Position numbers and translations under genes: made by a program. Of a stretch of 56,399 bases of DNA, positions 5,386-32,254 are shown in pieces. The notes under the pieces were generated by a model that worked only from the letters and a program-made list of their open reading frames with translations, made no database searches and was not told the origin of the DNA. The stretch covers positions 1-56,399 of the forward strand of contig JANQLQ010000038.1 of assembly GCA_028280565.1 (NCBI GenBank). The letters are read 5' to 3'. The stretch comes from Fulvivirga sp. (GTDB lineage: Bacteria; Bacteroidota; Bacteroidia; Cytophagales; Cyclobacteriaceae). Positions within the stretch are counted from its first letter, which is position 1, and each line of letters starts with the position of its first letter.

Positions 5386-6297
5386 TCAAGCCACTAAAAA
5401 AGCAGCTCCAAATACTCCTGCGCTATCGCCGAGTTTAGGACGAACGATTTGGGTATCGAAACGGGCGTTGAAAATATGTTTTGCTACCTCTTCCACCCCT
5501 CGGGTATACAAAATATCAAGGTTACTCACACCCCCTCCTAATACAATCACATGAGGGTCTAAGATATTGATCACCACGGATATGGCTTTTCCGAAAAACT
5601 CTGCCAGCCGATCCATGGTTTTTTTCGCGTATACGTCACCCTTAGCTTCCAGGTCTACGATCTCCTTGAGCGTCTTTTGCTGGCCGGATATTTCATGGTA
5701 ATACCGCTGCAGGGCCGGTCCCGATATCACTCTCTCTACACATCCCACCTTGCCACAGTAACACTTGCCCCCGGAGGCATCCAAAAAATTATGTCCCCAT
5801 TCCCCTCCTATTCCCTGGCTGCCATTGATCACCTGCCCGTTTATGACCACTCCTCCGCCTACCCCTGTACCCATGATGACCCCGAAAACTACCTCTGCTT
5901 CCGGGTTGACATCCTGTACCGCACCCATTCTAGCTTCGGCTAGCGCAAAGCAATTGGCATCATTGGCCATTTTAAGGGGAATACCCAGCGCAGTTTGCAG
6001 GTCTCGTTTGAAAGGCTGTCCATTTAAAGCTGTAGAATTGCTATTTTTATGCAGCCCCGTATGAGGATCAAACGTTCCGGGTGTACCTATCCCTAACGTA
6101 GCAGGGCTATGGCCTACTTCATCCGCAACAAGATCTACAAGGGTTTTGATTTGGTGAATGATGTGTTCGTATCCTTTATGGGCTTCGGTAGGGATACGTT
6201 TCCTAGAAAGGATTTCGTGATCATTTTTTGACTTGAGTACTGCGCATTCTACTTTTGTGCCGCCTAAGTCAATGCCCCAGATGGTGTCATGTGTCAT
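5386..6297 (-). CDS. ROK-family sugar kinase, fructokinase (Mak)-like
   Basis: A 303-residue cytoplasmic ROK kinase that phosphorylates a hexose with ATP. Visible features are the phosphate-binding DLGGTK at 10-15, catalytic Asp113 in NDAN, glycine loop GTGVGGG at 143-149, and the zinc site H169 with Cys179, Cys181 and Cys186 (CYCGKVGC). The wording GGEWGHN...CYCGK.GC.E.ISG is closer to E. coli fructokinase Mak than to NagK or glucokinase, from memory of those families. It is the last gene of the symporter/GlpK/GlpD/GH13 run, 59 bp after the GH13_31 gene. Next to a sucrose-cleaving GH13_4 enzyme, a fructokinase role is attractive. Glucokinase activity cannot be excluded. Confidence 0.9.
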   Translation of the reverse strand: MTHDTIWGIDLGGTKVECAVLKSKNDHEILSRKRIPTEAHKGYEHIIHQIKTLVDLVADEVGHSPATLGIGTPGTFDPHTGLHKNSNSTALNGQPFKRDLQTALGIPLKMANDANCFALAEARMGAVQDVNPEAEVVFGVIMGTGVGGGVVINGQVINGSQGIGGEWGHNFLDASGGKCYCGKVGCVERVISGPALQRYYHEISGQQKTLKEIVDLEAKGDVYAKKTMDRLAEFFGKAISVVINILDPHVIVLGGGVSNLDILYTRGVEEVAKHIFNARFDTQIVRPKLGDSAGVFGAAFLVA

Positions 6298-6356
6298 GTA
6301 TTTCTCTATAACCGTTGTGTTTATACCTTCACCCCACCTAGTTTGAAAGCAAAACG

Positions 6357-8009
6357 TTATACTTGCTTAAAGATCTTTGCCTCCCAGGGGCGCATGGCGT
6401 TAGATTTATTTGTTTCCTTGTAATTTCCTATTCGCAAATCCCATTCTCCATCCCCGGGCAATTCAACCGTTACGTCATGGTCACTCATATTCAAAGCGAT
6501 CAAAAACCTATGCTGATCGTCCCAGCGCTCGTAAATATACATGTTAGGATCGTTTTCCATAACACATTGATAATCTCCGTAGATAAGGGTAGGATTTTCT
6601 TTCCTGTAACGGATCATTTGACGGTAATAATTAAGAATAGAGCCAGGATCATTCTCTTGCGAAGCTACGTTAATTTGCTGATAGTTAGGGTTAGTTTTGA
6701 TCCAAGGTTCAACATTAGAGAAGCCACCGTGTTCGTCACCTGACCACTGCATGGGGGTGCGGGCATTGTCACGGCTTTGCGAGTGAACAAGCGTCAAAAA
6801 ATGCTCCATATCTTTTCCCTCTTCTTCCGCAGCTTTCCAGCTTTGTAACGTCTCCACATCCTGGTAGTCTTCAATACGGTCAAAGGCCACATTGGTCATT
6901 CCCAACTCATCACCTTGATAGATATAGGGAGTACCGCGTAAGGAAAGTAGGATTGTGGCTAGAAGTTTGGCGGATTGGGCATGATAGCGGCTGTCATTAC
7001 CAAAACGTGAAACCATCCTGGAAAAATCGTGGTTCCCCAAGAAAATACTGTTCCAGCCCCTACCCTTTAGTTTTTCATCCCATTCTGAAAATATACGTTT
7101 AAATCGTACCCGGTCGTACGGGATGGGGTCATACTTTCCGCCAGGGCCATTATCAATGAACATGTGGTCAAAATGAAAGATCATGTTCAATTCGCGACGG
7201 TCTTCGGCCACGTAGTCCAGTGCATTCCCCAGGTGTATGCCAGGTCCTTCGCCTACCGTCATAATGTCGTATTTACTTAATACCTCGGCGTTCATCTCCT
7301 GCAAGTATTCATGGATACGGGGGCCATTAGCGTACTGGTTTTCAATGATCTTTGCGTAATTAGCTGTATCTACATCGTTGAATTCCAACCTTTTGGATAT
7401 CAGGGAGATCACATCCATCCTAAAGCCATCCACACCTTTATCGAACCAAAATTTGATGATATCGTAGATCTCTTTCCTTACCTGGGGGTTTTCCCAGTTC
7501 AAGTCGGGCTGTTTCTTTGTAAAAAGATGTAAATAATAATCTTGGGTGGCTTCATTGAATTCCCAGGTACTTCCACCAAAAAAGGACTGCCAGTTGGTAG
7601 GCGGTGTACCGTTCGGGCTGGGCTTCCAAAAATAGTAATCCCGGTAAGGGTTATGTTTTGACTTACGAGCTTCTTGGAACCAGGTGTGTTCATCAGAAGA
7701 ATGATTGGCGACAAGATCCATCAAAATGCGCATTCCCCGGGCGTGTATACCTTCTAAAAGCCGGTCAAAGTCTTGCATCACCCCGAATTCATCCATGATA
7801 TCACGATAATCGCTAACATCATACCCGTTATCATCGTTGGGAGATTTATAAATAGGACATACCCAGATGATGTCCACACCAAGTGATTTTATGTAGTCAA
7901 GTTTTGATACCAGTCCTTGTAGATCACCAATACCATCGTTATTACTGTCTTTAAAACTGCGTGGGTACACTTGGTATACCACACCTTCTTTCCACCACGT
8001 TCTATTCAT
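6357..8009 (-). CDS. Oligo-1,6-glucosidase / alpha-glucosidase (GH13_31)
   Basis: A 550-residue cytoplasmic GH13 enzyme with no signal peptide. The three catalytic residues are in place: nucleophile Asp199 (GFRMDVIS), acid Glu254 (TVGEGPG) and Asp328 (GNHD). The QPDLNW motif at 167-172 marks subfamily 31. Val200 directly after the nucleophile is, in characterised members, typical of alpha-1,6-active enzymes (isomaltase, dextran glucosidase, trehalose-6-phosphate hydrolase), whereas Thr is typical of maltases. It probably releases glucose from isomalto-oligosaccharides or isomaltulose-type disaccharides. It follows the amylosucrase-like gene by 19 bp and is surely co-transcribed with it. Confidence 0.93.
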   Translation of the reverse strand: MNRTWWKEGVVYQVYPRSFKDSNNDGIGDLQGLVSKLDYIKSLGVDIIWVCPIYKSPNDDNGYDVSDYRDIMDEFGVMQDFDRLLEGIHARGMRILMDLVANHSSDEHTWFQEARKSKHNPYRDYYFWKPSPNGTPPTNWQSFFGGSTWEFNEATQDYYLHLFTKKQPDLNWENPQVRKEIYDIIKFWFDKGVDGFRMDVISLISKRLEFNDVDTANYAKIIENQYANGPRIHEYLQEMNAEVLSKYDIMTVGEGPGIHLGNALDYVAEDRRELNMIFHFDHMFIDNGPGGKYDPIPYDRVRFKRIFSEWDEKLKGRGWNSIFLGNHDFSRMVSRFGNDSRYHAQSAKLLATILLSLRGTPYIYQGDELGMTNVAFDRIEDYQDVETLQSWKAAEEEGKDMEHFLTLVHSQSRDNARTPMQWSGDEHGGFSNVEPWIKTNPNYQQINVASQENDPGSILNYYRQMIRYRKENPTLIYGDYQCVMENDPNMYIYERWDDQHRFLIALNMSDHDVTVELPGDGEWDLRIGNYKETNKSNAMRPWEAKIFKQV

Positions 8010-8028
8010 TTCTTGTAGGTTATGATCT

Positions 8029-9990
8029 CTATGAATTCACAGGGAGCTTGGGGTTTTTATTCGTCAGCCAAAGGAACTTATACGGCGACAGGTGCAGGTT
8101 CCCTCCTTTGAAAGTGACTTTGCGGCCGGAGTATTTATCCCAAAGGTGATCTAAAGGAAAGTTTTGATCTGCTACCCAATTAGCACTGATGATTTGGGTT
8201 TTATCCTTGAAGTTGGCTATCATCAAAGTAGAAGCGTTCGTTCCTAACCGTGTGAAGGCAAAGAGGTATTCGTTCCCTGTTTCAATGACCTGTGTGTTGT
8301 TTTGATCTGCCCACTCCTCAGTGTTACTCCTTATTTTTATCATTCGCTTTAACGCACTAAAAACGGCATGTTCGGGTGTCCCTCTCTTTTTACGCTGTTC
8401 CGCTCTTCCCCAATCTATTTTTGGTCGATGTACCCAACGGTTATCATCTTGCCGTTCTTCTTCTTTAAAAAAGGTGTAGTCATTAAGAGTGGCCAGTTCA
8501 TCGCCATAATAGAGCATGGGAATGCCCCCGTACGACAGCATAATGGCATGCAGGAGGATGATCCTGCGGATCGCAAACTCCACCTGCTGTTCATCCTTTT
8601 CTTCCAGGGCATATTCAAGCCCTGCCAGCGACGCCAATGATCCGGAAATACGAGCATCTCCATTTTTTGGATTGAACATGAAGGTAAGCCCCTTGGCAAA
8701 AGAGTCTTTGAACCTACCGGTAAGAAAATCAAGGATAAATTTACGATGATCATACGGGGTGTAACCCGCGGTGTGAATGTCCTGGTCCGTATACCCAAGA
8801 CCAATATCATCATGACAGCGGGCGTAATTGATCCAAGTAGTCCCCTTAGGCTTTACTGCCATCGCACGTAGGCCAGCATGTAAGACTTTGGTATTGTGTG
8901 TGGCGACGGAATCCCACAACAGGGCCATCATGGTGGCATTATAGGCCATATCACACTCATTGCTGCACGTAGTTGTATTTCCGAAATATTTGACTATTTC
9001 CCCCGGGGCTACAATAGCTTCTGCCAAAAGCGCCACCCCGGGTGCTACCACTTGAACACACAATTTATACAATTGCAATATACAATGGGCTTGCGGAAGG
9101 TTTTGACTAAGGGTATCTAACTGTTTCCAAATAAATGCTACCGCATCGAGCCTGAAAATGTCTATCCCCCAATTGGCCTGGGAAAGTAAAACATCTACCA
9201 TTTCAATGAGCACGGTTGGGTTCGTATAATTCAAGTCCCACTGGTAATCATGGAAAACGGTCATTACCCATCGGTTCATTTCTTTGCTAAAAGTAAAATT
9301 ACCGGGAGAGCTTGTAGGGAAAATTTCCGGCATCGACCTTTCAAACAGGTCCGGTACTGTACGTTCTTTAAAGGTATAATAGTATCCTTGGTATTGGCGA
9401 TCCCCCTTGCGGGCTTGTTGTGCCCAAAGATGTTCTGAAGAGGTATGATTGATCACCAGGTCCGTCATCACCAGCATATTGTGCTGATGCAGATGCGCTA
9501 CCACTTTCAGCAGGTCCTCGTTTGTACCATACCGGCTATCGATCTTCCGGTAATCACTGACCGCATAACCTCCATCATTTTTATCCCTGGGGCTTTGTAA
9601 GAGCGGCATTAAATGCACTAAACTGATCCCCAGCTCTTGCAAGTACGGTATTTTGGGCACAAAACCGGCCAGGTCATCGCTGAACCTATCCACGTACAGC
9701 ATCATCCCCGTTATATTTTCAGAAAGGAACCAGCCCGGGTGTTCTTCCCTATCACGATCCCTGCTCTTTAACTCTGCCGGTCTTGCTTCATATTTTCGAA
9801 GTAAAACCCGGATCAAATCCTGCAGGGACTCTTCAAAACCCGGCACCCCCCCGTAGAGTTTCTCAAAACGATAGTAAAGGTCATGGAAGTTGGCCACCAA
9901 CCGTAACCAAAAGTCATCCTCCCTATCGATGGAATAGGACGTGTCTGACAGGATCTTTTTTAAAAGAATATGAGCCCTAGGGTCGTACAT
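8029..9990 (-). CDS. Amylosucrase / sucrose hydrolase (GH13_4)
   Basis: A 653-residue cytoplasmic enzyme that matches Neisseria amylosucrase along its length: an N-terminal helical region (1-90), then a GH13 barrel with nucleophile Asp282 (FRLDAVAFIWK), acid Glu324 (AEAIV) and Asp394 (CHDDIG). Residues Asp139 (KNDGGYAV) and Arg518 (DDNRWVHRP) correspond to the Asp-Arg salt bridge that closes the sucrose pocket in amylosucrase, so sucrose is the likely substrate. The outcome is either alpha-glucan plus fructose (amylosucrase) or glucose plus fructose (sucrose hydrolase); this cannot be settled by eye. It lies 3 bp from glpD, tightly inside the operon. Fructose would go to the ROK kinase two genes on. 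Confidence 0.92.
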   Translation of the reverse strand: MYDPRAHILLKKILSDTSYSIDREDDFWLRLVANFHDLYYRFEKLYGGVPGFEESLQDLIRVLLRKYEARPAELKSRDRDREEHPGWFLSENITGMMLYVDRFSDDLAGFVPKIPYLQELGISLVHLMPLLQSPRDKNDGGYAVSDYRKIDSRYGTNEDLLKVVAHLHQHNMLVMTDLVINHTSSEHLWAQQARKGDRQYQGYYYTFKERTVPDLFERSMPEIFPTSSPGNFTFSKEMNRWVMTVFHDYQWDLNYTNPTVLIEMVDVLLSQANWGIDIFRLDAVAFIWKQLDTLSQNLPQAHCILQLYKLCVQVVAPGVALLAEAIVAPGEIVKYFGNTTTCSNECDMAYNATMMALLWDSVATHNTKVLHAGLRAMAVKPKGTTWINYARCHDDIGLGYTDQDIHTAGYTPYDHRKFILDFLTGRFKDSFAKGLTFMFNPKNGDARISGSLASLAGLEYALEEKDEQQVEFAIRRIILLHAIMLSYGGIPMLYYGDELATLNDYTFFKEEERQDDNRWVHRPKIDWGRAEQRKKRGTPEHAVFSALKRMIKIRSNTEEWADQNNTQVIETGNEYLFAFTRLGTNASTLMIANFKDKTQIISANWVADQNFPLDHLWDKYSGRKVTFKGGNLHLSPYKFLWLTNKNPKLPVNS

Positions 9991-9993
9991 GGA

Positions 9994-11643
9994 TCATTTA
10001 AAGGTGGACACCTCCTGTATTTCCCGCTCCAGTTCTTTCAGCTCATCGGCCAGCCTTTTTTCATCCCAATCAAAGATGTTTTTCATGTATTCACCAATAG
10101 GTTTTCCGTATTTTCGTACACTATCTATATCAAAGTAAAGCCGTCCTGTTCGCCGGATAAAGAAATCCCTTGGGTTTATGACCAGTTCATTCTCAACGCA
10201 GAAGCGACATTCGGCTTTGACCAATTTAAGGTAGATATCTTTATCTTCCATTTGAGTGAACAGGTCCATAATGGTGTCCACTTGCCTGCCGTAATTGCTG
10301 ACCAGGTAAAAGGAGGTATGTTCATCAAACCCTAATGTGTGTAATCGCTGTTGTAGAGAAGTTTGGAATACCTTTACTTCCTCGGCACTTGAAAACACCC
10401 CGCCTTTCAGTGGGATCTTATCCGTTTTACAGGCTTCCAGTTGAAAGTCCGGGTCTTCTTTGTTATTTTTTTTCACAACAACATCTACGATGCGCTGGGC
10501 CATTTTCCTAAACCCGGTAAGCTTACCGCCGGCAATAGAAAGCAACCCCGTACTGGATTCGAAGATCTCATCTTTTCTCGATATTTCGGAAGAAGATTTT
10601 CCTTCCTCGTGTATGAGGGGCCTCACTCCTGCCCAGCTGGATACGACATCACCGGGTTTTAAATGGAGGGTAGAAAATGCAGCATTAGAAGCATCAAGCA
10701 AGTAAGTCACATCTTCTTTATTCGTTAAGATATGGTCTTTATCATCCGTATAGTCCGTATCGGTGGTACCTATGTAGGTGACTTTTCCACGGGGAATGGC
10801 AAAGATCATCCTGCCGTCCGGTACGTCAAAATAGATGGCTTGGCGCAATGGGAATTTTTCCTTGGGTACGACGATGTGCACCCCTTTGGTGAGGTGCAAA
10901 TGTTTCCCGGATAAGGATTGATCTTTTACTCTCAGGTCATCTACCCATGGCCCAGCGGCACTAACAATGTACTTGGCAGTAACTTCAAACTCTTCCCCGG
11001 TTAAAGTATCTTGTGCCTCGATGCCACAGACTTTGCTGTCTTGGTATAAAAAATCTGTGGCCATTACATAATTGACACACTCCGCATCGTATTGCCCGGC
11101 AGTCTTGATCACTTCTATGGTCAAACGGGCGTCATCGGTTCGGTATTCAGCGTAAATACCCGCTCCCTCGAGTGTTTCCTCGTTTAAAAGCGGTTCTTTT
11201 TTTAACGTTTCTTCTTTGGAAAGCATCTTACGCTGGTCAGCACTTTCTACTCCCGCCAGCACATCGTATACCATCAATCCTATGGAAGTGGCAAATTTGC
11301 CGTACGTACCTCCTTTGATCAATGGGAGCAGCATTTTTTCAGAGGGCACCAGGTGAGGTGCATTTTTGTGAACGATCGCCCGCTCCCTTCCCACTTCTCT
11401 TACCAGGGCGATCTCAAATTGCTTTAGGTATCTTAAACCTCCGTGGATCAGCTTGGTAGAGCGACTACTGGTGCCCGAGGCAAAGTCATTCTTTTCTACC
11501 AAGACCGTCTTTAACCCGCGTGAAGCAGCATCCAGGGCTATACCAGCCCCGGTGATGCCTCCTCCTATGACGAGCAGGTCATATTTTGTTCTTTTAAGTA
11601 CGTCCAATAGATCTTGACGTTCCAGCGCCGATAACTTGTTCAT
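9994..11643 (-). CDS. glpD: Aerobic glycerol-3-phosphate dehydrogenase
   Basis: A 549-residue FAD flavoprotein of the cytoplasmic membrane that oxidises sn-glycerol-3-phosphate to dihydroxyacetone phosphate and passes electrons to quinone. The FAD-binding GGGITGAG is at 27-34, followed by the family signature SGTSSRSTKLIHGGLRYL at about 56-73. The length is normal. The C-terminal ~110 residues form the usual DAO_C-type helical domain. It lies 7 bp downstream of glpK and 3 bp upstream of the GH13_4 gene. There is no glpF nearby. The coupling to disaccharide enzymes rather than to a glycerol facilitator suggests that glycerol is produced from a sugar-glycerol conjugate. Confidence 0.96.
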   Translation of the reverse strand: MNKLSALERQDLLDVLKRTKYDLLVIGGGITGAGIALDAASRGLKTVLVEKNDFASGTSSRSTKLIHGGLRYLKQFEIALVREVGRERAIVHKNAPHLVPSEKMLLPLIKGGTYGKFATSIGLMVYDVLAGVESADQRKMLSKEETLKKEPLLNEETLEGAGIYAEYRTDDARLTIEVIKTAGQYDAECVNYVMATDFLYQDSKVCGIEAQDTLTGEEFEVTAKYIVSAAGPWVDDLRVKDQSLSGKHLHLTKGVHIVVPKEKFPLRQAIYFDVPDGRMIFAIPRGKVTYIGTTDTDYTDDKDHILTNKEDVTYLLDASNAAFSTLHLKPGDVVSSWAGVRPLIHEEGKSSSEISRKDEIFESSTGLLSIAGGKLTGFRKMAQRIVDVVVKKNNKEDPDFQLEACKTDKIPLKGGVFSSAEEVKVFQTSLQQRLHTLGFDEHTSFYLVSNYGRQVDTIMDLFTQMEDKDIYLKLVKAECRFCVENELVINPRDFFIRRTGRLYFDIDSVRKYGKPIGEYMKNIFDWDEKRLADELKELEREIQEVSTFK

Positions 11644-11650: not shown

Positions 11651-13135
11651 TTAGTTTTCCAACCAATTCATGGTCCGTTGAACGGCCTTCTTCCAGCGTG
11701 TGTAAAGCTTTTCCCGGTCTACTTGGGAGAGCCCGGGCTCGAAAGTGCGATCTATCTGCTGCACTTCTGTTAAGTCTTTCATTTTCCATATCCCTGCCCC
11801 GATCCCGGCCAGGTAAGCTGCCCCTTGGGCCGTGGATTCAATGATCCCGGGCCTCAACACTGGCACTCCCAAAATATCGGCTTGGAATTGCATCAAGTAA
11901 TCATTGGCTACGGCGCCGCCATCCACCTTTAGGGATTGCAGCTCTATGCCTGCATCTTTTTCCATAGCCTGTAGGATATCCCGTGTTTGGTAGGCCAAAG
12001 AATCTAAGGTGGCCTTTGCTAAATGCCGCCGATCGGTATCCCGCGTCAGGCCGAAAATGGCACCACGCGCATACATGTCCCAATAAGGAGCCCCCAGGCC
12101 AACAAAGGCCGGGACAACGACCACATCGTCAGAGTTTTGTACTTCCTTGGCCATCTGTTCCGTTTCTGCCGCATCTTTAATGATCTCTAATCCATCCCTG
12201 AGCCATTGCACAGCGGCGCCCGCCACGAAAATACTGCCTTCCAGGGCATAGTAGACTTTATCTTCAAGGCCAAAGGCTATGGTAGATAGTAACCCATTTT
12301 CCGAAAGTTGGGGAGTTTCACCGGTATTCATTAACATAAAACACCCTGTACCATATGTATTCTTAGCGGTACCTTTTTCAAAGCATGTCTGCCCAAATAG
12401 GGCTGCCTGCTGATCCCCCGCAATGCCATGAATGGGAATGCTCACTCCCTCGAATTCCCAATCTCCAAAATGGCTGACCGAAGGCTTTACGCTTGGAAGC
12501 AGCTCCGCCGGAATATCCAATACATCCAACATTTCCGTGTCCCAACCCAGTTTGTTGATATCAAAGAGCATGGTCCGGGAGGCATTCGTGAGATCCGTTA
12601 AATGCTCTTTGCCTTGGGTAAGTTTATAGACCAGCCATGTATCAACCGTACCAAATGCCAAGGTGCCATCCTTTGCTTTTTCACGCCCCGGGTCAATTTC
12701 GTCCAATATCCATTTCACCTTGGTGCCGGAGAAATAGGCATCTATGACCAGGCCGGTTGTATCACGCACGTGCTTTTCATACCCCGCTTTTTTTAGGTGG
12801 TTACAAATACCGCTGGTCCGCTTATCCTGCCAAACAATAGCGTTGTAGACAGGTTTTCCTGTTTCTTTGTCCCATACAATGGCGGTTTCACGCTGGTTGG
12901 TGATCCCCAAGGCAATGATCTCATTAGCCTGTACGTGGTTGTTTTCAATTAATGCCAACAACACATCCTGTTGTGAGGACCATATTTCATCGGCATCATG
13001 CTCCACCCACCCCGGTTTTGGGAAATGCTGCGTGAATTCCTTCTGCTCGATCGCCAATAAAGCTCCTTCACGGTCAAACAGTACGGCCCTAGAACTTGTT
13101 GTTCCCTGGTCTAAAGCAATTATGTATTTCCCCAT
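11651..13135 (-). CDS. glpK: Glycerol kinase
   Basis: A 494-residue FGGY-family kinase making sn-glycerol-3-phosphate from glycerol and ATP. The N-terminal [11 protein letters not shown] (residues 7-17), RETAIVWDK, the WQDKRT substrate loop and catalytic Asp241 in [11 protein letters not shown] are all present. Length is normal for GlpK. It stands between the symporter (47-bp gap) and glpD (7-bp gap) on the same strand. No operator-like site is evident directly upstream, so it is likely transcribed from the symporter promoter. Confidence 0.97.
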
Positions 13136-15147: not shown

Positions 15148-15161
15148 TGTAAACGATTGCA
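15148..15161. promoter_or_regulatory. Weak LacI-type operator candidate
   Basis: TGTAAACGATTGCA differs at two positions from the TGCAAACGTTTGCA palindrome form found before the susC genes. It lies in the 305-bp gap between the trehalase and the symporter, 271 bp upstream of the symporter start. The distance is long and the match imperfect, so this is only a candidate. I see nothing else in 14878-15182. Confidence 0.3.
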
Positions 15162-18216: not shown

Positions 18217-18252
18217 TAACCGCAGAGGTAACGGAGGTCTACGCAGAGGGCC
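18217..18252. repeat. Left arm of 36-bp inverted repeat around GxxExxY gene
   Basis: A perfect 36-bp inverted repeat with 18653-18688. It contains CCGCAGAGGTAACGG and GGTCTACGCAGAGGG. The stop codon of the GxxExxY gene (TAG, 18241-18239 on the minus strand) lies inside this arm. Confidence 0.95.
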
Positions 18253-18640
18253 ACGGAGATTTGTAGTATTTATTGATTACCCTCCTTAAGCCGTCGGTTA
18301 GTTTTACTTCGTTAAAGTTTATGAGTAGGCCAATTCTATTGTTGCCCAGCTTTAAATAGGTTAAAATCTGTGCAAGGTGTATGTCATTAAGGCTTTCAAC
18401 TGCTTTTATTTCGACGATGATTTTATTTTCCACTAGCAAATCTACTCGATAACCGCATTCTAGTTTCACCTCGTCGTAGACGAGGGGTAGAGGCTTTTCC
18501 TTTTCAACGTATAGTTCATCTTTTATAAGCTGGTAGTATAAACATTCCTTGTAAGCGGATTCTAACAACCCGGGGCCTAAGTCTTTATGCACTTTTATAG
18601 CCACCCCTATAATTTTTTGTGTAATTAAGTTTTCTTCCAT
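18239..18640 (-). CDS. GxxExxY protein (PD-(D/E)XK nuclease-like)
   Basis: A 133-residue protein with the defining GLLESAYKECL motif (G-x-x-E-x-x-Y, Gly24 to Tyr30) and a nuclease-like core: Glu53, Asp67 in YRVDLLVENK, and the EIKAVE stretch at about 77-82. The last residues (SPWPSA) and the stop codon are encoded by the flanking inverted repeat. The family is found in many copies in Bacteroidota and related phyla and is regularly flanked by this kind of repeat, from memory. The gene and its repeats appear inserted between the GH65 and haloperoxidase-like genes, in the same orientation. Function is unproven. Confidence 0.9.
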   Translation of the reverse strand: MEENLITQKIIGVAIKVHKDLGPGLLESAYKECLYYQLIKDELYVEKEKPLPLVYDEVKLECGYRVDLLVENKIIVEIKAVESLNDIHLAQILTYLKLGNNRIGLLINFNEVKLTDGLRRVINKYYKSPWPSA

Positions 18641-20700: not shown

Positions 20701-20756
20701 TGCATAGTGCATATATCTAAAGAAGTAGTTATCAAGTGTTTTGACATTAGCGGGAG

Positions 20757-24083: not shown

Positions 24084-27000
24084 CTACAATTCCAACCTAT
24101 AGTCCTGGTCATTCGTTTTAAAAAGTAGGGGTTTGCGATCATTTAAAAGTACTAGGAGATGCCGATGATCACGGATACCCACAGAAAGCACCTGTTTAAT
24201 TTCTCCATGGATTTTGACACCTGACTGCACGGAAGGAATAGAGACAAAATCCCCATTCCCATCCCCTAAGAGCACTAGTCCAAAACTTGCATCTAGCTTA
24301 GAATATTGCGGTGTAAAGCCGGAGTCATTACCTCCTATGATCATATCCATATTTCCATCTCCATCGACATCCCCCGTAAATATGGCGTTGACATTGGAGA
24401 ACTGTGCTCGTTCGGGTAGCGGTTTCAATAAAAACTTTCCATTTCCTTCATTGAGGGCCAATGCGCTTTTAAAATATACAGCTTCTTTAACCGTAGCTTG
24501 GGATATAATGCCCTCACTAAAAAGATCGTGTATAGACTTTGTGGCATACTCCGAATGTGTCAAAACTTGTTTTTTGAGACTCGGTATTTGATCGGTGAGT
24601 TCTCGTTTGAGGGTTAGTGGCATATCCCTGCCGTCAATGTTACGGGTCATGAGTTTTTCAACGGTACCATTCTTATCAAAATCCTGTAACCAAAGTTTCG
24701 CAGGGCGAGAGGTATCCGCGGTAAAATAAAAATTTTCACCTCGATTACCCAGGATCAAATCCATGTCCCCGTCGTTGTCAATGTCACTGGAATGAACTGC
24801 ATACCACCATCCGCTATAGTTAGATAAGTTGATATCAAAAGGTATGAGACGTTTTTGAATTTTGAAAGCTGTAGGAGCCATCCATTCTCCTACTATCACC
24901 AGTTCCTGCAGCTTATCTCCATCCAGGTCGATCAAAAGAGCATCGGTTACCATGCCTAATGTCTTTAATTCCCTCGCTCTTCTTACTGTAACATCAGTAA
25001 ACGCACCTGAACCATCATTTTCATATAAAAAACTTCGAGGAGATGATCCATAATTACCGGGAATGCTCCTGCTCCCAACAAACAGGTCCAGGTCATCATC
25101 TTGATCATAATCAAATGCCAACGCCACGGAGGTGTTCATTCCATGGTTACCTAACGCCCCGGGTCTCATCGCAAAGTTACCCTTACCATCATTCAAATAA
25201 ATGCGATCCCTCATTTGCATATCACCAGCAGGCCGATGATTCCCCCCGGAGCCAATGAAGAGATCCATATCGCCATCACCATCCATGTCAAAGACAGTCA
25301 TGGCTGTATCTTCAAAGGCTTCACTTCCCGGAAGTTGCTTTTCGCCCTGCTTTTTAAAACCCACGGGACTTTGAAAATATACCTTTGTTGTTTGTCCATA
25401 TGCCCCGCCAATGGCCACATCATCAAGTCCATCTCCATTGAAATCTGCGACCACTCCTACGGGCCCTTCCCTGGATACCTTCTTGGTAATGAGACCCTCA
25501 GGGTAAAAGTCCACGTGCTGATCTTCTTGGTGTGGTTCAAAAGGGTTTTGAACTTGTACCAGTAGTGGTTGAAAGTTTTCGGCCTGCGTCCTTTGATCGA
25601 ATTTATCAACATTTTTATAGCTTAATACCAGGAGAGTGTCCACCGGGGGCTGTTTTATGATAGACTTCTTTAGATCGGGCCAGGTTATCTCAATCGAATC
25701 CAGCCTAGTAGAACTTCCAAGTCCAAAAGTCATTTTATACTCTACTGACGATTGGAACCCTCGAGTGGGAATTAGTTGAAAACTTAGCCTTTCCTCGCCC
25801 CTGTGTAACAATACCTTGGCCCCTACAGCAAAAGTATTCTTTTCGGCACCTTCGAGCTTTATGGAAAGATAATGATTGCCATACTGTTCACTATTATTTT
25901 TAAACAAAAAGGATTCTTGGTTTAGGTTGTTTACCACTAAGTCCTGGTCACCATCATTATCCAAGTCACCGTAGGCCGCACCGTTAGAAAAAGAGGCTAT
26001 ATTCAATCCAAAATCCTCTTCAGCAGGTCTGAACGACAGGTTGTTTTGGTTATGAAAAAACTTATTTGCCAAGGGTTGGGAGGGCATTCGTCCCAGTACC
26101 GTTTCCATTTTCTCCTTTACCCCGGTCAAGACCATACTTTGAACCACGTCATTGGCAAAAAAGTCTACAAAATCTTGATCGGTTACGTCTTGGTAAACAC
26201 CGTTACAGACATAGATATCTTTATGACCATCGTTATCCGCATCAAAAACTAGCGCCCCCCAACTCCAGTCGGAGGCCGCCACACCACTGTACCAAGCTAT
26301 CTCGCTGAATGAACCGTCACCATTGTTCAGTTGAAGCGTATTGTGCATGTATTGATGATAAAAGTCCCGTCCTAGTTTCAGTTGATAAACATTGTAGCTA
26401 TCAAATAGACTTTTTCGTTTGATCTCCTCATCCGTTCCCGGGAGCATTTCCGTAACAAATATCTCGGGGTATCCATCATTGTTGATGTCTGCCATATCCG
26501 CACCCATCGAAGCTAGGCTAAGGTGTTGCATGGTGCCTTTTATTTTTTCTTGAAAAGTGCCGTCACCATTATTGAAATACAAATAGTCATGCTCGAAAAA
26601 ATCATTTGATACATAGATGTCCGGGAGATGATCATTGTTCAAATCACCTACCGTTACGCCCAGGCCAAAACCAATAAGACTGCCATAGATCCCTGCTTCT
26701 TTGGTCACATCGATGAACCTCCCATTATCATTACGAAGCAGTTTATCCCCTCCTCCTTTAAGGAATTCCTTTACGTTCCAGTCCTCGGCATATAGTTCAC
26801 GTTTATTAGAATAGTTTAACGTATTAACCGGTATGAAACTATTGTTTAAAATGTAAGCATCTAGGTCACCATCCAGGTCATAATCAAAAAACGCTGCATG
26901 GGTGGTATAACCATCTTCATCCAGGTTGTACATGGAAGCACTTTCTGTAAATGTTAAGTCCCCATTATTGATAAATAGTTCATTTTTTTGATCGGTACCT

Positions 27001-27419
27001 TCTACATACCCAGCGTTAGAAACATAAATATCCAAAAAACCATCGGCATTGATATCGACCATTGTCACCCCTGTACTCCAGCCTTTCGTTCCTCCAACAC
27101 CAGCGGAGCTTGTTATATCTTCAAAACGGAAATCACCTTTATTCAAGTAAAGCCGATTCTCCTTTTCATTGCCGGTGAAATAAATGTCAGGGAGATTATC
27201 ATTGTTGATATCGCCTATTCCTACCCCTCCGCCATTGTAAAAATTACGATAGGTGAATATATTGAACTTGTCCCTATTCGTGACAGAGTTTACAAAGTCA
27301 ATCCCAGAAATGCCGGGGGGAATAAGCTCAAAAACCCCTTTCTCCTGCCCATGTTCAAATGTCTCTGGCTGGCATGCAAATGCACTAAATATGACTAAAA
27401 AAAATTGTAAGGGTCTCAT
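24084..27419 (-). CDS. FG-GAP/VCBS repeat lipoprotein with UnbV/ASPIC domain (copy 1)
   Basis: A 1111-residue lipoprotein (FACQ, Cys16) with the same order of parts as its downstream neighbour. It starts with a matching blade (FYNGGGVGIGDINNDNLPDIY), has repeated Ca2+-loop blades such as DYDLDGDLDAYIL and DLDNDGDQDLVVNN, the UnbV segment (RGFQSSVEYKMTFGLG, then IEITWPD), and further blades to the C-terminus. The two genes are 3 bp apart and arose by tandem duplication. The gene begins 118 bp after a terminator that follows susD, so this pair may be read from a separate promoter or by read-through. Confidence 0.9.
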   Translation of the reverse strand: MRPLQFFLVIFSAFACQPETFEHGQEKGVFELIPPGISGIDFVNSVTNRDKFNIFTYRNFYNGGGVGIGDINNDNLPDIYFTGNEKENRLYLNKGDFRFEDITSSAGVGGTKGWSTGVTMVDINADGFLDIYVSNAGYVEGTDQKNELFINNGDLTFTESASMYNLDEDGYTTHAAFFDYDLDGDLDAYILNNSFIPVNTLNYSNKRELYAEDWNVKEFLKGGGDKLLRNDNGRFIDVTKEAGIYGSLIGFGLGVTVGDLNNDHLPDIYVSNDFFEHDYLYFNNGDGTFQEKIKGTMQHLSLASMGADMADINNDGYPEIFVTEMLPGTDEEIKRKSLFDSYNVYQLKLGRDFYHQYMHNTLQLNNGDGSFSEIAWYSGVAASDWSWGALVFDADNDGHKDIYVCNGVYQDVTDQDFVDFFANDVVQSMVLTGVKEKMETVLGRMPSQPLANKFFHNQNNLSFRPAEEDFGLNIASFSNGAAYGDLDNDGDQDLVVNNLNQESFLFKNNSEQYGNHYLSIKLEGAEKNTFAVGAKVLLHRGEERLSFQLIPTRGFQSSVEYKMTFGLGSSTRLDSIEITWPDLKKSIIKQPPVDTLLVLSYKNVDKFDQRTQAENFQPLLVQVQNPFEPHQEDQHVDFYPEGLITKKVSREGPVGVVADFNGDGLDDVAIGGAYGQTTKVYFQSPVGFKKQGEKQLPGSEAFEDTAMTVFDMDGDGDMDLFIGSGGNHRPAGDMQMRDRIYLNDGKGNFAMRPGALGNHGMNTSVALAFDYDQDDDLDLFVGSRSIPGNYGSSPRSFLYENDGSGAFTDVTVRRARELKTLGMVTDALLIDLDGDKLQELVIVGEWMAPTAFKIQKRLIPFDINLSNYSGWWYAVHSSDIDNDGDMDLILGNRGENFYFTADTSRPAKLWLQDFDKNGTVEKLMTRNIDGRDMPLTLKRELTDQIPSLKKQVLTHSEYATKSIHDLFSEGIISQATVKEAVYFKSALALNEGNGKFLLKPLPERAQFSNVNAIFTGDVDGDGNMDMIIGGNDSGFTPQYSKLDASFGLVLLGDGNGDFVSIPSVQSGVKIHGEIKQVLSVGIRDHRHLLVLLNDRKPLLFKTNDQDYRLEL

Positions 27420-27536
27420 TTAAAGAAAATTGTAGGCATAGATCGGTTTCCAATAAGGCTCATAACCTACTATGATTACGTCCAGTCATCATTAAGGACT
27501 ATGGAGTCTCTTTCTTTACACATCAATAAATAAAGA

Positions 27537-27564
27537 GAAGGGTAACCTCGTTTGATTACCCTTC
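27537..27564 (-). terminator. Terminator after the first susD
   Basis: Perfect 9-bp stem GAAGGGTAA (27537-27545) and TTACCCTTC (27556-27564) with a 10-base loop. On the minus strand it is followed by a T-rich run. It lies 44 bp past the susD stop codon and separates susCD from the FG-GAP genes. Confidence 0.85.
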
Positions 27565-27607
27565 TTCCTAGTTTAAATTAATGGATATATGGAAGAATCT
27601 TTAAATT

Positions 27608-29116
27608 TTAATAGCCTGGGTTCTGCTCCAAGTTTGGATTAGAATCAAGAGCAATTTGAGGGATTGGATATAATAATCTGAAAGCGTCAGAATTAGTTTT
27701 GCCTTCCCAAGGATCGTCAAACGTACCAAACCGGACCTGGTCATTTCGTCTCCAACCTTCCCAATAGAGCTCCCGCCCTCTTTCATTGAGTATTTCATCT
27801 AAAGTGGCAGGGATCGATTCAACACCTCTCACATTTCGCAGGTTATCTAACATGCTTTGTGCCGTTTCTCCCCCGGTAGGCGCCCCGCCTCTCAATATCG
27901 CTTCTATCTTCATTAAATACGCATCAGCATATCGTAATAGTACTAGGTTTAGAAAATCCGAAGGGTGATACTTGAGTACCCTAATGCCGGCACGTTCATT
28001 GTTACCTGCCAGCCCTACTTCAGGAGTAAATACTAGTGGGTTACCGCCCCTATCTTGAAGCACTTCTCCATCTACCCCAAATTGTTGTCCTTCTAAAAAT
28101 CCAAAACCTATACCATTCTCTGCCGTACCGCCCCTTCTAATGTCGTCCTCTTCAAAAAGACCATAAAAATCGGCTAAGGTAGCAAAACCATTCCATCCTC
28201 CTCCCTCTACTTCAGGGTTAAACTGGTTGTAATGGATCGTCATTCTCCAGCGAGTTTCAGAACTACCTACGTCCGTTTGTGTTGCAAATATGATCTCATT
28301 GGAACCATTGGAATCGAAGTTGCCAAAATACTCTGGCTCCAACGCATAACCGGCCGCGGTGATCTCATCGACCAATCCTATCACCTGGTCCATATCCTGT
28401 GTATTAAATGAAAAAGCACCGGGACCTTCGGCTGTGACCTCTACGCTATAAACTGCCCGGTTTAAATATACTTTGGCTAGCAAAGCTTGAGCGGCAGCCT
28501 TATTCGCAATACCGGCGTCTGTTCCTGGTCCACCATCGGCTAAGCCGGGTATGGCCGCTTCCAAATCTGTGATCACAAAGTTAAGAGCTTCCACACGGGT
28601 CAATACCCTAGGGTCGATCTCTGATCCTTCATTCACTTCTCTAAAGGGTACTTGGCCAAAAAAGTCCACTAAGTAGAACATATTAAATGCCCTTAGAAAC
28701 CTTGCTTGGGCGGCTTGAGCAGCATCAGGATTTGAAGCTAAGGCCTGGTTAGCTAAGAAAACATTAGAATGCAGTGCGTTCCAAGCATCCAGCATGAATT
28801 GATGGTCAGGGGACCATTGATGATTATGAAGCTGTCGCCAAACCCCGTTGTCTCCCCAATCCGTGCCCCTTGTCGGTCCGATCAGCTCATCCGTGGTATG
28901 TTCGGTCAGCGAATAGATGTTATTTTGAGCTGTAAAATCTTCCAACCCTCGATATACACTATTCAATAATTCTTCGGGATCTCCTTGAAATCCGCCATCA
29001 CCCGTCTCAATTACAACTGAATCTGTTATAGACGGCTCTAAATCAGTACACCCCAGTGCCAACAGCGCCAGAATCATAAGCGATAGGATGTTTATAGTGT
29101 TCAATTTCCGAATCAT
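27608..29116 (-). CDS. SusD/RagB-family nutrient-binding lipoprotein
   Basis: A 502-residue outer-membrane lipoprotein. The lipobox LGCT gives Cys23. The N-terminal half has the helical TPR-like pattern of SusD (ARFLRAFNMFYLVDFFGQVPF near 195) and the C-terminal part ends with the family-typical NERGRELYWEGWRRNDQVRFGTF stretch, in pieces, followed by YPIPQIALDSNPNLEQNPGY. It forms the lid of the SusC channel and selects the glycan or oligosaccharide. It begins 20 bp after the susC stop and is followed by a terminator. Confidence 0.95.
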   Translation of the reverse strand: MIRKLNTINILSLMILALLALGCTDLEPSITDSVVIETGDGGFQGDPEELLNSVYRGLEDFTAQNNIYSLTEHTTDELIGPTRGTDWGDNGVWRQLHNHQWSPDHQFMLDAWNALHSNVFLANQALASNPDAAQAAQARFLRAFNMFYLVDFFGQVPFREVNEGSEIDPRVLTRVEALNFVITDLEAAIPGLADGGPGTDAGIANKAAAQALLAKVYLNRAVYSVEVTAEGPGAFSFNTQDMDQVIGLVDEITAAGYALEPEYFGNFDSNGSNEIIFATQTDVGSSETRWRMTIHYNQFNPEVEGGGWNGFATLADFYGLFEEDDIRRGGTAENGIGFGFLEGQQFGVDGEVLQDRGGNPLVFTPEVGLAGNNERAGIRVLKYHPSDFLNLVLLRYADAYLMKIEAILRGGAPTGGETAQSMLDNLRNVRGVESIPATLDEILNERGRELYWEGWRRNDQVRFGTFDDPWEGKTNSDAFRLLYPIPQIALDSNPNLEQNPGY

Positions 29117-29136
29117 AACTTAATTGTTTATATCTT

Positions 29137-32124
29137 TTAAAATGATGCTGAAACACCAAATGTAAATGTTCTTGCTCTCGGGTAGGCCGAGTAATCGATA
29201 CCAAAAGAAGGTACCTCATCGATGGCTCCGTCTACGTTTACCTCGGGATCTAAACCACTATAATCTGTAAATAGCAGCAAGTTTTGACCAGTGGCAAAAA
29301 GCCTTAAAGAGGATATAAAGTCCCAATTGGAAGTATCAAAGCTATATCCTAACGTAACATTCTGAAGCCTTACAAAGGAACCATTTTCTAAAAATCGCGT
29401 GGAGGCATCGGGCGCATTTAGGTTAGACTCACCATTTCCCGGCACATCGTCCGTCACATTCCGGCCATTTCCTAAAGCTCCTGCTGTAAATAGTGCGTTG
29501 GCCGTGTTGTTATAAATTTCTTGGCCAAACTGCCCGGTAAAAAAGAAGCTGAAATCAAGAGATTTATAGTTAAACCTGTTCGTCACACCCGCGATCACGT
29601 CTGGAAGTGGACTGTCCCCGGTGAATTGCTGGATATCGCCGTCCCTGTAAATGGACTCACCGTTCTCATTGAAACCTTCGAATATCCTAATGAAGTACGC
29701 GTAAAGTGGTTGACCACCCGCTATCCTTTGGGCAAACACGTTAGAAAGCCCTTGGCCATTGATCTCACCGGTATTGACCACCCGATCAAAGTTTTCCACT
29801 CGGTTACTATTGTAGCTCACGTTGGCAGATATATCCCAGGAGAAGTCAGTATTATCAATCGCGTCCACCTCAACCGAAAGCTCAACTCCTTCGTTTATTA
29901 CATCTGCATCCAAGTTTTCCCATGCGAATTCATTAGGAGCTGGCTGGGCACTAGGCAATCGGAAAAGGAGGTCGTTGGTGTTCTTCCTGTAATATTCAAG
30001 CGATCCTCGAACCCTGTTATCTAAGAATCCATAATCGAGCCCGATGTTGATCTGTTCGGTAGATTCCCACTGGATATCTGGATTTTCAAAGGTTACGTTG
30101 GTAAGGGCACCATCCGCCACATTGGCGTTATCAAACCTGAAATCCTGGAACCTCTGTCTCGTTTGGAATAAGTTGTTCGGTATCTCTTGATTCCCTGTGA
30201 TCCCATACCCTACTCTTAATTTTAGGTCTGAAAAAACTTCCGGAACAAATATTTCATCCGATAGTCTCCAAGCCAATGCTAATGACGGAAAATAGCCATA
30301 CCGGTTATCATCCCCGAATCGAGTGGAACCGTCTGCTCTTACAGTGGCTGTGATCAAATATTTGTCATTGATATTCAAATTTGCCCGGGTAAAAAAGGAT
30401 TGTATCTCGTCTTCCGTAAGTGAGCTATTACCAATCATATCTCCCCCTTCACCATCGACTGTACTAAAATCAAATGATGACAAGTTATTGATCATCAAAT
30501 TCACATCGTTAGTCCTAAACCCCTGGGCCAAGATGGTCCTGGAAGAATTTTCAAAGCGCTGGTAGGAATGCCCCAAAAGTGCATCTAGTTTAACTGAACT
30601 GCTTAGCTCCTTGCTGTAATTGAAGTAGTTCTCTACTAAACGGTTATTGATTTGAATATCCGCAAACGATGCCCTTCCCACACCCTCAATGTTTGCCGCT
30701 ACCAGGTCAGACGAAAAAGCTTGTGCCCTTGACGACAAGGACCGGTCAAAACCTAAAACTGTTTTGAAAGAAAGATCTTCCGTGATATCAAAATTCACAG
30801 AGAAATTCGCCAATGTTCTAAGTGTATTGGTATTATCTTCACCAAAAGCGAGCATCGCCATTGGATTGAGTTGATCATTCCCGATCTGGTTAAACGTGCC
30901 ATCAGGATTGCGAACCGGCCTTGTAGGATTTGCTGTCCACGCGGAAATTAACAAGTCCCCGGCAAAGCCCGCATTATTCGTTATAGGTGCAATTTCATCA
31001 TCTACATCTGCTACAGTCATTTGTGTTGAGACTGTCAGGCGATCATCTAAAAACCGGTAAGATCCATTAAAACGAGCTGTTCTTCTTTCCACACCACTCT
31101 CCTCTATGATTCCTTGTTGATCTAATAGTCCTAATGAAACCCTAAAATCACCGTTATCATTCCCTCCGCCAAAGGATAAATTATGGCTATGTGTAACTGC
31201 CGTTCTAAATATTTCATCTTGCCAGTCCGTGTTACTACCGAAATCTAGTTCAGACCTGTTCCCTCCTAATTCTTCTGCTGAATCTAGGAATGCTTCTCGG
31301 CCTAACAGGTCAAACTCATTAGCGGCATTGGCTATACTTATGGACGACGTATATTGTAAACTCCCTGCTCCAGCACCTTTTCCGCTTTTTGTTGTGATGA
31401 TCACAACACCATTTGCTCCCCTTGAACCATAAATTGCTGCCGCAGAAGCATCTTTTAATATACTTATGCTCTCGATATCATTAGGATTGATAAAGTTTAG
31501 TGGGTTCCTAGCCGATGAACCTCCAAAACTCAGGTCGGACCCTTCACCCGAAGTCTCACCTCCACCCAGTGGCACGCCATCCACTACGAATAACGGGTTA
31601 TTATCACTGCGAACAGAAGAGGTACCCCTGATCCTAATGCTAATTCCTGCGCCTGGCTCACCACTATTTTCGGTAATTTGAACACCAGCAGTTCTACCTT
31701 GTATCAATTGTTCAGGTGATGCAATAACCCCTTGGTTAAAGTCTTCGGCTGAAACAGTAGCGACCGCACCCGTAGCGTCCCTTTCTTCTACTTCACCGTA
31801 ACCTATCACCACCACTTCAGATAGTTGCTGTACATCGGTTGTCAAGTTAATATTGATCGTTGATCGACCCGCTACAAGCGTTTCTTGGGTTACATACCCC
31901 ACAAAAGAAAAAACGATAGAAGCACCCTCGGCTACCGAAAGAGTATAATTCCCATCAAAATCACTGACTGTGCCATTGGTGGTGCCTTTCTCTACAATGT
32001 TCACCCCCGGGATAGGACTCCCGTCCGCAGCATCTGTCACTCTCCCGGAAACTGTAACTTGTGCTAGTGCGCCATGGCAAAAAAGCAGCAATAGCATTAC
32101 TTTTAAAAGTAAAAACTTCTTCAT
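29137..32124 (-). CDS. SusC-type TonB-dependent outer-membrane transporter
   Basis: A 995-residue receptor. Parts in order: signal peptide (1-21, ending ALAQ), carboxypeptidase-regulatory-like domain (about 23-97), plug domain with the SusC signature ASAAAIYGSRGANGV near 227-241, and a large beta-barrel ending in the aromatic-terminated strand TFGVSASF. It imports oligosaccharides with energy from TonB/ExbBD. A LacI-type palindrome lies 117 bp upstream. Together with the next gene it forms the uptake pair of the sugar/osmolyte cluster. Confidence 0.96.
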   Translation of the reverse strand: MKKFLLLKVMLLLLFCHGALAQVTVSGRVTDAADGSPIPGVNIVEKGTTNGTVSDFDGNYTLSVAEGASIVFSFVGYVTQETLVAGRSTININLTTDVQQLSEVVVIGYGEVEERDATGAVATVSAEDFNQGVIASPEQLIQGRTAGVQITENSGEPGAGISIRIRGTSSVRSDNNPLFVVDGVPLGGGETSGEGSDLSFGGSSARNPLNFINPNDIESISILKDASAAAIYGSRGANGVVIITTKSGKGAGAGSLQYTSSISIANAANEFDLLGREAFLDSAEELGGNRSELDFGSNTDWQDEIFRTAVTHSHNLSFGGGNDNGDFRVSLGLLDQQGIIEESGVERRTARFNGSYRFLDDRLTVSTQMTVADVDDEIAPITNNAGFAGDLLISAWTANPTRPVRNPDGTFNQIGNDQLNPMAMLAFGEDNTNTLRTLANFSVNFDITEDLSFKTVLGFDRSLSSRAQAFSSDLVAANIEGVGRASFADIQINNRLVENYFNYSKELSSSVKLDALLGHSYQRFENSSRTILAQGFRTNDVNLMINNLSSFDFSTVDGEGGDMIGNSSLTEDEIQSFFTRANLNINDKYLITATVRADGSTRFGDDNRYGYFPSLALAWRLSDEIFVPEVFSDLKLRVGYGITGNQEIPNNLFQTRQRFQDFRFDNANVADGALTNVTFENPDIQWESTEQINIGLDYGFLDNRVRGSLEYYRKNTNDLLFRLPSAQPAPNEFAWENLDADVINEGVELSVEVDAIDNTDFSWDISANVSYNSNRVENFDRVVNTGEINGQGLSNVFAQRIAGGQPLYAYFIRIFEGFNENGESIYRDGDIQQFTGDSPLPDVIAGVTNRFNYKSLDFSFFFTGQFGQEIYNNTANALFTAGALGNGRNVTDDVPGNGESNLNAPDASTRFLENGSFVRLQNVTLGYSFDTSNWDFISSLRLFATGQNLLLFTDYSGLDPEVNVDGAIDEVPSFGIDYSAYPRARTFTFGVSASF

Positions 32125-32240
32125 AAAGGTTGATTTGGTTAGTAATACGATTAAAAAGTGTCTGCTTCGACCTAATTAATATACCTCGAATTATCCTATT
32201 ATCACAGGGTTTTCCAACAAAAATGAGGTGTAAACGGTTT

Positions 32241-32254
32241 CGCAAACGTTTGCA
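32241..32254. promoter_or_regulatory. LacI-family operator upstream of susC
   Basis: CGCAAACGTTTGCA contains the perfect 12-bp palindrome GCAAACGTTTGC (32242-32253) with the central CG typical of LacI-family sites. It is 117 bp upstream of the susC start. The same 12-bp core occurs before the other susC and next to the LacI regulator gene. Confidence 0.75.

Follow-up and report, generated by a model that had tools for sequence, protein, structure and literature searches.

A candidate LacI-controlled alpha-glucan and alpha-glucoside utilisation locus with linked glycerol catabolism in Fulvivirga

Polysaccharide utilisation loci (PULs) are usually taken as polymer-degrading units, and FjDexUL of Flavobacterium johnsoniae, which serves branched dextran, contains GH66, GH31 and GH97 genes (PMC10316084, excerpt). 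Glycoside hydrolase family 65 (GH65) includes a glucosylglycerol phosphorylase (PMC8537180, excerpt), and the structure 4ktp is that of a glucosylglycerol phosphorylase according to the excerpt of PMC8626586, which also gives the active-site residues of FjGH65A. MmGH, assayed on nine alpha-glucosides, was specific for kojibiose with weak activity on nigerose; glucosylglycerol is outside these nine substrates in the excerpt of PMC8537180, and the FjGH65A assay substrates in the excerpt of PMC8626586 do not name it. In Synechocystis, glpK adjoins a gene for a glucosylglycerol hydrolase (PMC5002435, excerpt). The locus described here lies in a stretch of 56,399 nucleotides from Fulvivirga sp. (the window; assembly GCA_028280565.1, contig JANQLQ010000038.1), which is one entire contig (C141) of a 9.05-Mb draft genome. 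Its block at positions 5386-43159 is probably a LacI-controlled superlocus for the utilisation of alpha-glucans and alpha-glucosides with glycerol catabolism built in. Judged by sequence, the locus is real and conserved and appears to be co-regulated, each of its enzymes being ordinary and their combination unusual.

A sequence-only reading of the same DNA had proposed an osmolyte-scavenging locus in PUL format at 5386-32254. All genes that it named were recovered by profile and PDB searches on the minus strand, in the proposed order and span, but the end at 32254 was set too short, as the same strand runs on to SusC2 (43159). Four genes inside the block had been overlooked, namely those for a vanadium-iodoperoxidase-like lipoprotein, two FG-GAP/ASPIC lipoproteins and a GxxExxY protein. 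In transcription order, a first set consists of SusC2, SusD2, DUF5004, DUF4961, SusE and a GH13 protein with a secretion tail, and a second set of SusC1, SusD1, ASPIC 2, ASPIC 1, GH65, GxxExxY, the iodoperoxidase-like protein, GH37, a symporter, GlpK, GlpD, GH13_4, GH13_31 and ROK, while a LacI gene is divergent from SusC2 (Table 1). The block thereby combines adjacent SusC and SusD homologues, carbohydrate-active enzymes and a regulator, the gene complement of a PUL. By eye and with a simple pattern, lipobox-like N-termini were seen in the iodoperoxidase-like, GH37, SusD1 and both ASPIC proteins and a signal-peptide-like start in GH65; GH13_4, GH13_31, ROK, GlpK and GlpD are without an export signal.

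In the proposed pathway, maltodextrins and small alpha-glucosides would cross the outer membrane through two SusCD systems, GH37 and GH65 would hydrolyse trehalose and alpha-1,2-linked glucosides outside the cytoplasm, and the SGLT-like symporter would import glucose. Sucrose- and isomaltose-type sugars would be split in the cytoplasm, glycerol would be phosphorylated by GlpK and oxidised by GlpD to dihydroxyacetone phosphate, and the LacI protein would sense an alpha-glucoside or product and release operators of the form CGCAAACGTTTGCG. The same reading treats the ASPIC and peroxidase-like lipoproteins as a conserved accessory module of SusCD; for the ASPIC pair, surface binding is a guess, and the peroxidase-like protein is given no firm activity.

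The recurrence of the gene order in relatives shows that the gene set is more than a chance assembly. A set of 98 genomes (own, genus, family and order; G, C and L numbers below denote genomes, contigs and stretches) contained a GH65 match over the model cut-off in 22, and the order SusC-SusD-ASPIC-ASPIC-GH65-peroxidase-like-GH37-...-GlpK-GlpD-GH13-ROK recurs, albeit with gaps and losses, both within the window's genus and outside it. Genes were counted as paired when <=20 kb apart on one contig, relative to the genomes having both, after exclusion of iodoperoxidase-like matches of <=273 bits, GH37 matches of <=204 bits (except an end fragment in G010) and GH65 matches below the cut-off (except a remnant in G003). 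GlpK is paired with the peroxidase-like gene in 14/50 genomes, including 8 genera besides the window's, with GH37 in 10/37, with GH65 in 8/21 (one of the eight, G003, has only the remnant) and with GlpF in 34/55; the peroxidase-like gene is paired with GH65 in 13/21 and with GH37 in 14/35. These counts are lower bounds because the draft genomes are broken; in G010, GH37 pieces lie at two contig ends and the glycerol half on the other of these contigs. The genomes are related, yet uniform placement would predict less than one GlpK/peroxidase-like pair in 50 genomes. A lack of linkage between glpKD and the glycosidases in relatives, which would have spoken against the original proposal, was thus not observed.

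Shared putative operators point to co-regulation. Six strand-matches at <=2 mismatches occur in the window, compared with a mean of 0.58 in shuffled sequences, none of which (0/100) reached six, and the window together with 95 fetched stretches contains 13 matches at <=1 mismatch, whereas 20 permuted palindromes gave 0.35 on average and at most 2. A putative operator (<=2 mismatches) lies <=400 bp upstream of the ASPIC-linked SusC1 in 10/14 cases (G000, G001, G002, G004, G009, G010, G013, G014, G023 and G031), the 14 being those with start and upstream sequence within the stretches, which leaves out G008 and end-cut SusC genes such as that of G044. At the same settings, the operator is near 2/2 SusC2 genes and 0/6 other SusC-like genes. 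In G001, G009 and G014, the symporter gene preceding glpF-glpK-glpD has a site 184-198 bp upstream; in G002 the site is 552 bp ahead of glpF, at 197 bp from a divergent gene. Pfam identifies the divergent neighbour in G014 as a mutarotase, and at this place G002 and G009 contain a gene that resembles it in length and at the N-terminus. These shared sites suggest that the glycerol genes of the relatives belong to the same regulon as the locus.

The window's own genome contains 11 places with <=1 mismatch, three of them in the window, and none for a reversed control pattern. Sites are found at a GH13 three-gene run starting with a SusG-like gene (C185), at an amylase gene followed by GH31 (C255), at pfkA followed by a GH15/trehalase-like gene (C210), at SusCD sets (C201, C323), and near other regulators, namely a LacI paralogue (C49) and GntR/FCD-type genes (C117 and C212, the latter by its N-terminus only). 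Since the operator marks starch-enzyme genes, pfkA and SusCD sets, a regulon for alpha-glucans and alpha-glucosides is the economical reading. As chance predicts, some matches with two mismatches are intragenic, in unrelated genes (L066, L071, L142) or within an ASPIC gene (L136). An operator-like sequence with one mismatch, CGCAATCGTTTGCA, is also present at 46351-46364 of the window, between an AraC gene and a run of aldehyde dehydrogenase, acetyl-CoA synthetase and DUF779 genes.

Several observations weigh against such a regulon and the pathway built on it. The operator motif was derived from the window itself and its link to LacI is predicted; some of the sites in the own genome may belong to other regulators, because two adjoin GntR-type genes and one a different LacI gene. 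No operator was found within 400 bp upstream of SusC at <=2 mismatches in G029, G038, G055 and G084, with an exact site one gene further upstream in G038. The only operator-like sequence ahead of the symporter gene in the window, TGCAATCGTTTACA, is degenerate, with two nucleotide differences from the equivalent sites of G002 and G009. Furthermore, the stepwise model gives no role to the peroxidase-like and ASPIC genes, which are among the most conserved neighbours.

The iodoperoxidase-like protein receives only a weak PAP2 label from Pfam. It is 59% identical, over nearly its full length, to the Zobellia vanadium-dependent haloperoxidase 4cit/4usz, and 4USZ_A is the vanadium iodoperoxidase of Zobellia galactanivorans (PMC5064120). 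In the alignment, the catalytic and vanadate blocks are identical to those of 4cit, as expected of a vanadium haloperoxidase. The motifs of the vanadate site are taken here to be K-x6-RP, SGH and a C-terminal R...H. In a class-wide sample, strong peroxidase-like matches occur in 28/295 genomes (32 matches); 20 stretches were fetched, G000 and G031 had been mapped earlier, and the other 10 were left unread. As the first pass scored <=5 peroxidase-like or <=3 GH65 candidates per genome, class-wide counts may be low. An ASPIC/FG-GAP gene adjoins the peroxidase-like gene on the same strand, directly or with one small gene between, in 14/20 of these stretches, often with SusCD. ASPIC-domain genes are common (139/295 genomes, 17 genes in the own genome), and this frequency predicts such a neighbour within 10 kb for no more than a few per cent of the stretches, so that the association is a wide one. 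GH65 is found in 3/20 stretches (G111, G309, G325) and, from a comparison of two class-wide searches, beside the peroxidase-like gene in G297 and G241 as well, while glpK occurs in 0/20 (20-kb stretches). The link to GH65 is therefore narrower, and that to the glycerol genes was observed within the order alone, as far as the stretches read beyond it extend. G044 (L111) contains an ASPIC/peroxidase-like cassette whose 20 kb hold no glycosidase or glycerol gene matching those of the window.

By its sequence, the GH65 protein is of the kojibiose-hydrolase type, exceeding the curated cut-off with its catalytic residues intact. It shares 346/644 residues with FjGH65A and keeps 9/10 of the active-site positions of the latter, including the general acid Glu472, the general base Glu616 and the -1/+1 residues; the sole change is Trp473 (+2) to Tyr, which is likewise found in several relatives. 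Judged from the hydrolase-marking general base and the PDB scores (132 bits to 4ktp, 790 bits to FjGH65A), it does not qualify as a glucosylglycerol phosphorylase. Nor is the GH13_4-type protein a GH13_18 glucosylglycerol/sucrose phosphorylase, as it fails the sucrose phosphorylase model TIGR03852 (54.8 bits, cut-off 334.4), a model that is absent among the best 25 of 37 NCBIfam models for the GH13_31-type protein. A GH65 signature specific to glycerol-linked clusters was considered and rejected: the residues before the catalytic Glu vary (GANE versus AADE and similar) and are not diagnostic, because clusters with ASPIC and peroxidase-like genes carry both forms (L014 and L149 versus the window). 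The GH65 remnant of G003 (L076; C50:28180-28605) is an open frame of 158 residues aligning with no more than the two termini of the model, although the rest of the cluster is well preserved.

The osmolyte proposal holds that the substrate is 2-O-alpha-glucosylglycerol, with trehalose and sucrose, and that GH65 splits it into glucose and glycerol outside the cytoplasm, for use via the symporter and GlpF/GlpK/GlpD, respectively. It can draw on the cleavage, by kojibiose-hydrolase-type GH65 enzymes, of alpha-glucose linked to a C2 hydroxyl, on the phosphorylase within the same family, on the Synechocystis arrangement (PMC5002435, excerpt), which sets a precedent for glpK/glycosidase linkage, and on the link of glpF/glpK/glpD to GH65 under a common operator in relatives. 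In addition, the closest relative, G010, is a metagenome-assembled genome named 'BBD 1991-12', which we take to refer to the cyanobacterial mat on corals known as black band disease. The kojibiose-type hydrolase, however, keeps the residues of the +1 glucose site, which weakens its case as a glucosylglycerol enzyme, and the occurrence of the operator at starch-enzyme and glycolysis genes argues for alpha-glucans in general rather than osmolytes. Three clusters hold glycerol genes and the peroxidase-like gene without GH65 or GH37, which likewise weakens the proposal: G023 keeps ASPIC, peroxidase-like, symporter, GlpF, GlpK, GlpD, GH13_31 and ROK genes; G029 keeps ASPIC, peroxidase-like, GlpF, GlpK, GlpD and ROK genes, its GH13 matches in the stretches read being confined to the upstream maltodextrin set (46% to the secreted GH13, 22% to GH13_31); and G084 keeps SusCD, ASPIC, peroxidase-like, GlpK, GlpD and GlpF genes with zero glycosidase matches in the stretches read. 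Conversely, GH65 adjoins the peroxidase-like gene without a glp gene in the 20-kb stretches of G111, G309 and G325, and the stretches of G062, G081, G082, G096 and G097 contain GH65 without a match to SusCD, peroxidase-like, GH37 or glycerol genes (G082 and G097 have a distant GH13, and G082 also a partial FG-GAP gene on the opposite strand). The lack of a glycerol facilitator had also been cited in favour of glucosylglycerol. GlpF is indeed absent from the window, and a search of the own genome for MIP genes gave only one on C37, ~2.4 kb from a lactate permease gene, and one on C165. This absence is local, because many relatives have GlpF in the cluster or beside its genes (G001, G002, G003, G008, G009, G014, G023, G029, G031, G038, G057 and G084; in G055 it is ~7 kb beyond GlpK), and the argument loses force. 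A PUL-format locus for small alpha-glucosides with linked glycerol catabolism therefore stands, whereas the osmolyte substrate set is one plausible reading among several and, taken as a whole, rather unlikely.

An improbable alternative is that the PAP2-type protein is a phosphatase acting on glycerol phosphate, glycerophosphodiesters or glycerol-phosphate polymers bearing alpha-glucose or kojibiose, with GlpF/GlpK/GlpD taking the glycerol. The frequent proximity of glpK to the peroxidase-like gene (14/50 genomes, 8 further genera) and the glycerophosphodiester phosphodiesterase gene beside glpF in the G084 cluster are in line with it. Against it stands the 59% identity of the protein to a structurally solved vanadium haloperoxidase; moreover, just one cluster yielded a phosphodiesterase gene (unassigned genes being unscanned in most clusters), and the trehalase and sucrose enzymes would stay unexplained. 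For a branched-dextran PUL of the FjDexUL kind one could cite the FjGH65A-type GH65, the oligo-1,6-glucosidase-like GH13_31 and the modest to low growth of Fulvivirga kasyanovii on dextran (PMC12565237, excerpt). This was rejected as most improbable, given that Pfam scans of the block proteins detected none of GH66, GH31 and GH97. A bolder version of the whole, which is unlikely but less so than either of these two, sees in SusC-SusD-ASPIC pair-GH65-iodoperoxidase-like a Bacteroidota outer-membrane machine for small alpha-1,2-glucosides of photosynthetic cells, wired in one Cytophagales family to glpFKD under a LacI alpha-glucan regulon as a glucosylglycerol-catabolising PUL, with the vanadium enzyme, as phosphatase or peroxidase, processing the substrate directly. 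The LacI-controlled alpha-glucan/alpha-glucoside superlocus remains the preferred explanation.

Table 1. Positions of genes and sequence elements in the window.
Feature	Position	Strand	Basis or remark
ROK-family sugar kinase	5386..6297	-	PF00480; substrate unsettled
GH13_31-type oligo-1,6-glucosidase-like alpha-glucosidase	6357..8009	-	best PDB relatives oligo-1,6-glucosidases; without signal peptide by eye
GH13_4-type amylosucrase/sucrose hydrolase	8029..9990	-	best PDB relatives amylosucrases, sucrose hydrolase ranks lower; without signal peptide by eye
GlpD-type FAD glycerol-3-phosphate dehydrogenase	9994..11643	-	DAO and DAO_C domains
GlpK glycerol kinase	11651..13135	-	TIGR01311 724 bits, cut-off 590
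SSS-family Na+ symporter, SGLT-like	13183..14877	-	PF00474; best PDB relatives SGLT1 and bacterial sodium/glucose cotransporter
Weak operator-like site TGCAATCGTTTACA	15148..15161	-	upstream of symporter; read by eye; not significant alone
GH37 trehalase, lipoprotein-type signal	15183..16799	-	PRK13270 569 bits, cut-off 512; lipobox-like LASC
Vanadium-iodoperoxidase-like (PAP2 superfamily) lipoprotein	16854..18203	-	257/433 aligned residues identical to 4cit; lipobox-like LLSC
GxxExxY / PDDEXK_3 small protein	18239..18640	-	TIGR04256
GH65 kojibiose-hydrolase-type alpha-1,2-glucosidase, signal peptide	18694..20712	-	NF053734 1107 bits, cut-off 800
FG-GAP repeat and ASPIC/UnbV protein 1, lipoprotein-type signal	20757..24080	-	PF13517, PF07593
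FG-GAP repeat and ASPIC/UnbV protein 2, lipoprotein-type signal	24084..27419	-	PF13517, PF07593
Terminator-like hairpin between SusD1 and ASPIC genes	27536..27565	-	12-pair stem, T-rich tail; pattern only
SusD homologue 1	27608..29116	-	PF07980
SusC homologue 1	29137..32124	-	TIGR04056 748 bits, cut-off 368
LacI-type operator CGCAAACGTTTGCA	32241..32254	+	117 bp upstream of SusC1
GH13 amylase-like protein with type IX secretion tail	32495..35599	-	PF00128, CBM_48, Por_Secre_tail
SusE, DUF4961, DUF5004, SusD2 (maltodextrin-type set)	35840..40051	-	
SusC homologue 2	40052..43159	-	TIGR04056 843 bits
LacI-family regulator	43133..44395	+	PF00356/PF00532
Perfect palindromic operator CGCAAACGTTTGCG	43221..43234	.	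between SusC2 and probable LacI start

The CAZy subfamily numbers GH13_4 and GH13_31 are our presumed assignments, the computed basis being the PDB relatives. For the ROK protein, the family assignment holds, whereas the fructokinase label given to it earlier is unsettled, as is its substrate, because the NCBIfam fructokinase model scores 273 bits against a cut-off of 443 and the best PDB matches are N-acetylglucosamine kinases. GlpD is under the cut-off of every NCBIfam model among the best 25 of 41 matches; a peroxide-making GlpO feeding the peroxidase was considered, type 1 GlpO being the best NCBIfam match, but was not adopted given a score far under the cut-off (484 bits, cut-off 840; 549 residues, model of 607 positions). 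The true start of the LacI gene is probably at about 43364, as the helix-turn-helix begins near residue 82 and the homologues of relatives comprise 342-362 residues. Terminator-like patterns show no excess in the region as a whole (19, compared with 18.4 in shuffles). Among the clusters mapped, the GxxExxY gene is at the corresponding place only in the window and G010. Downstream of ROK, positions 3525-4607 encode a predicted lipoprotein of 360 residues that is 62% identical in G010 and has zero Pfam or NCBIfam matches at the thresholds used. In G010, a GNAT acetyltransferase gene that is absent from the window lies between GlpK and the symporter (L109:11180-11638). A DUF3179 protein is encoded near ROK in G038 (L043:7057-8244) and G111 (L130:6991-8178), together with a PfkB gene in the former and an MFS gene in the latter. 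The 1.6-Mb genome G084, which keeps the ASPIC/peroxidase-like/glpK/glpD cluster, has a glycerophosphodiester phosphodiesterase and a PfkB kinase gene beside glpF (L098, on C1).

In line with the preferred reading, F. kasyanovii scores positive for both trehalose and sucrose; F. sediminis and F. imtechensis score negative for either sugar (PMC10113389, table). In the excerpt of PMC12565237, F. kasyanovii grew on 31/34 carbon sources, with modest to low growth on glycerol; starch is in this panel and not among the three failures, and trehalose is outside it. Carriers of the locus include the named strains F. kasyanovii and F. marina, which makes induction and enzyme tests feasible. No description of the gene set was found in the literature as judged by titles and abstract openings, a search that left subscription papers mostly outside its coverage and does not show absence from print. 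If the preferred reading is true, a locus that places outer-membrane uptake, disaccharidases and glycerol catabolism under a single operator would reveal how small cell solutes are taken up by marine Bacteroidota. The recurrent occurrence of an iodoperoxidase-like gene with genes for kojibiose hydrolase and ASPIC proteins offers a specific, testable context for two protein groups, whose role in such loci was not found described.

Compared with known systems, the locus shares with FjDexUL the SusCD pair and a GH65 kojibiose hydrolase with a signal peptide, but replaces GH66, GH31 and GH97 by GH37, two other GH13 types, glycerol genes, the ASPIC pair and the peroxidase-like gene. Its SusC2-SusD2-SusE-GH13 set beside a regulator, and an operator common to other starch-enzyme genes, resemble the Sus-type starch PULs of Bacteroidota, to which it adds a second SusCD set, disaccharidases, a symporter and glpK/glpD, with a LacI regulator instead of SusR. 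The Zobellia haloperoxidase is matched in sequence, active-site blocks included, by a homologue that is embedded here in a SusCD/GH65/glycerol locus. Finally, glpK stands beside a glycosidase gene as in the glucosylglycerol recycling of Synechocystis (slr1670 and glpK), yet the glycosidases are GH65, GH37, GH13_4 and GH13_31 rather than slr1670 (GHL5) or the GH13_18 phosphorylase of Marinobacter, and uptake across the outer membrane is added.

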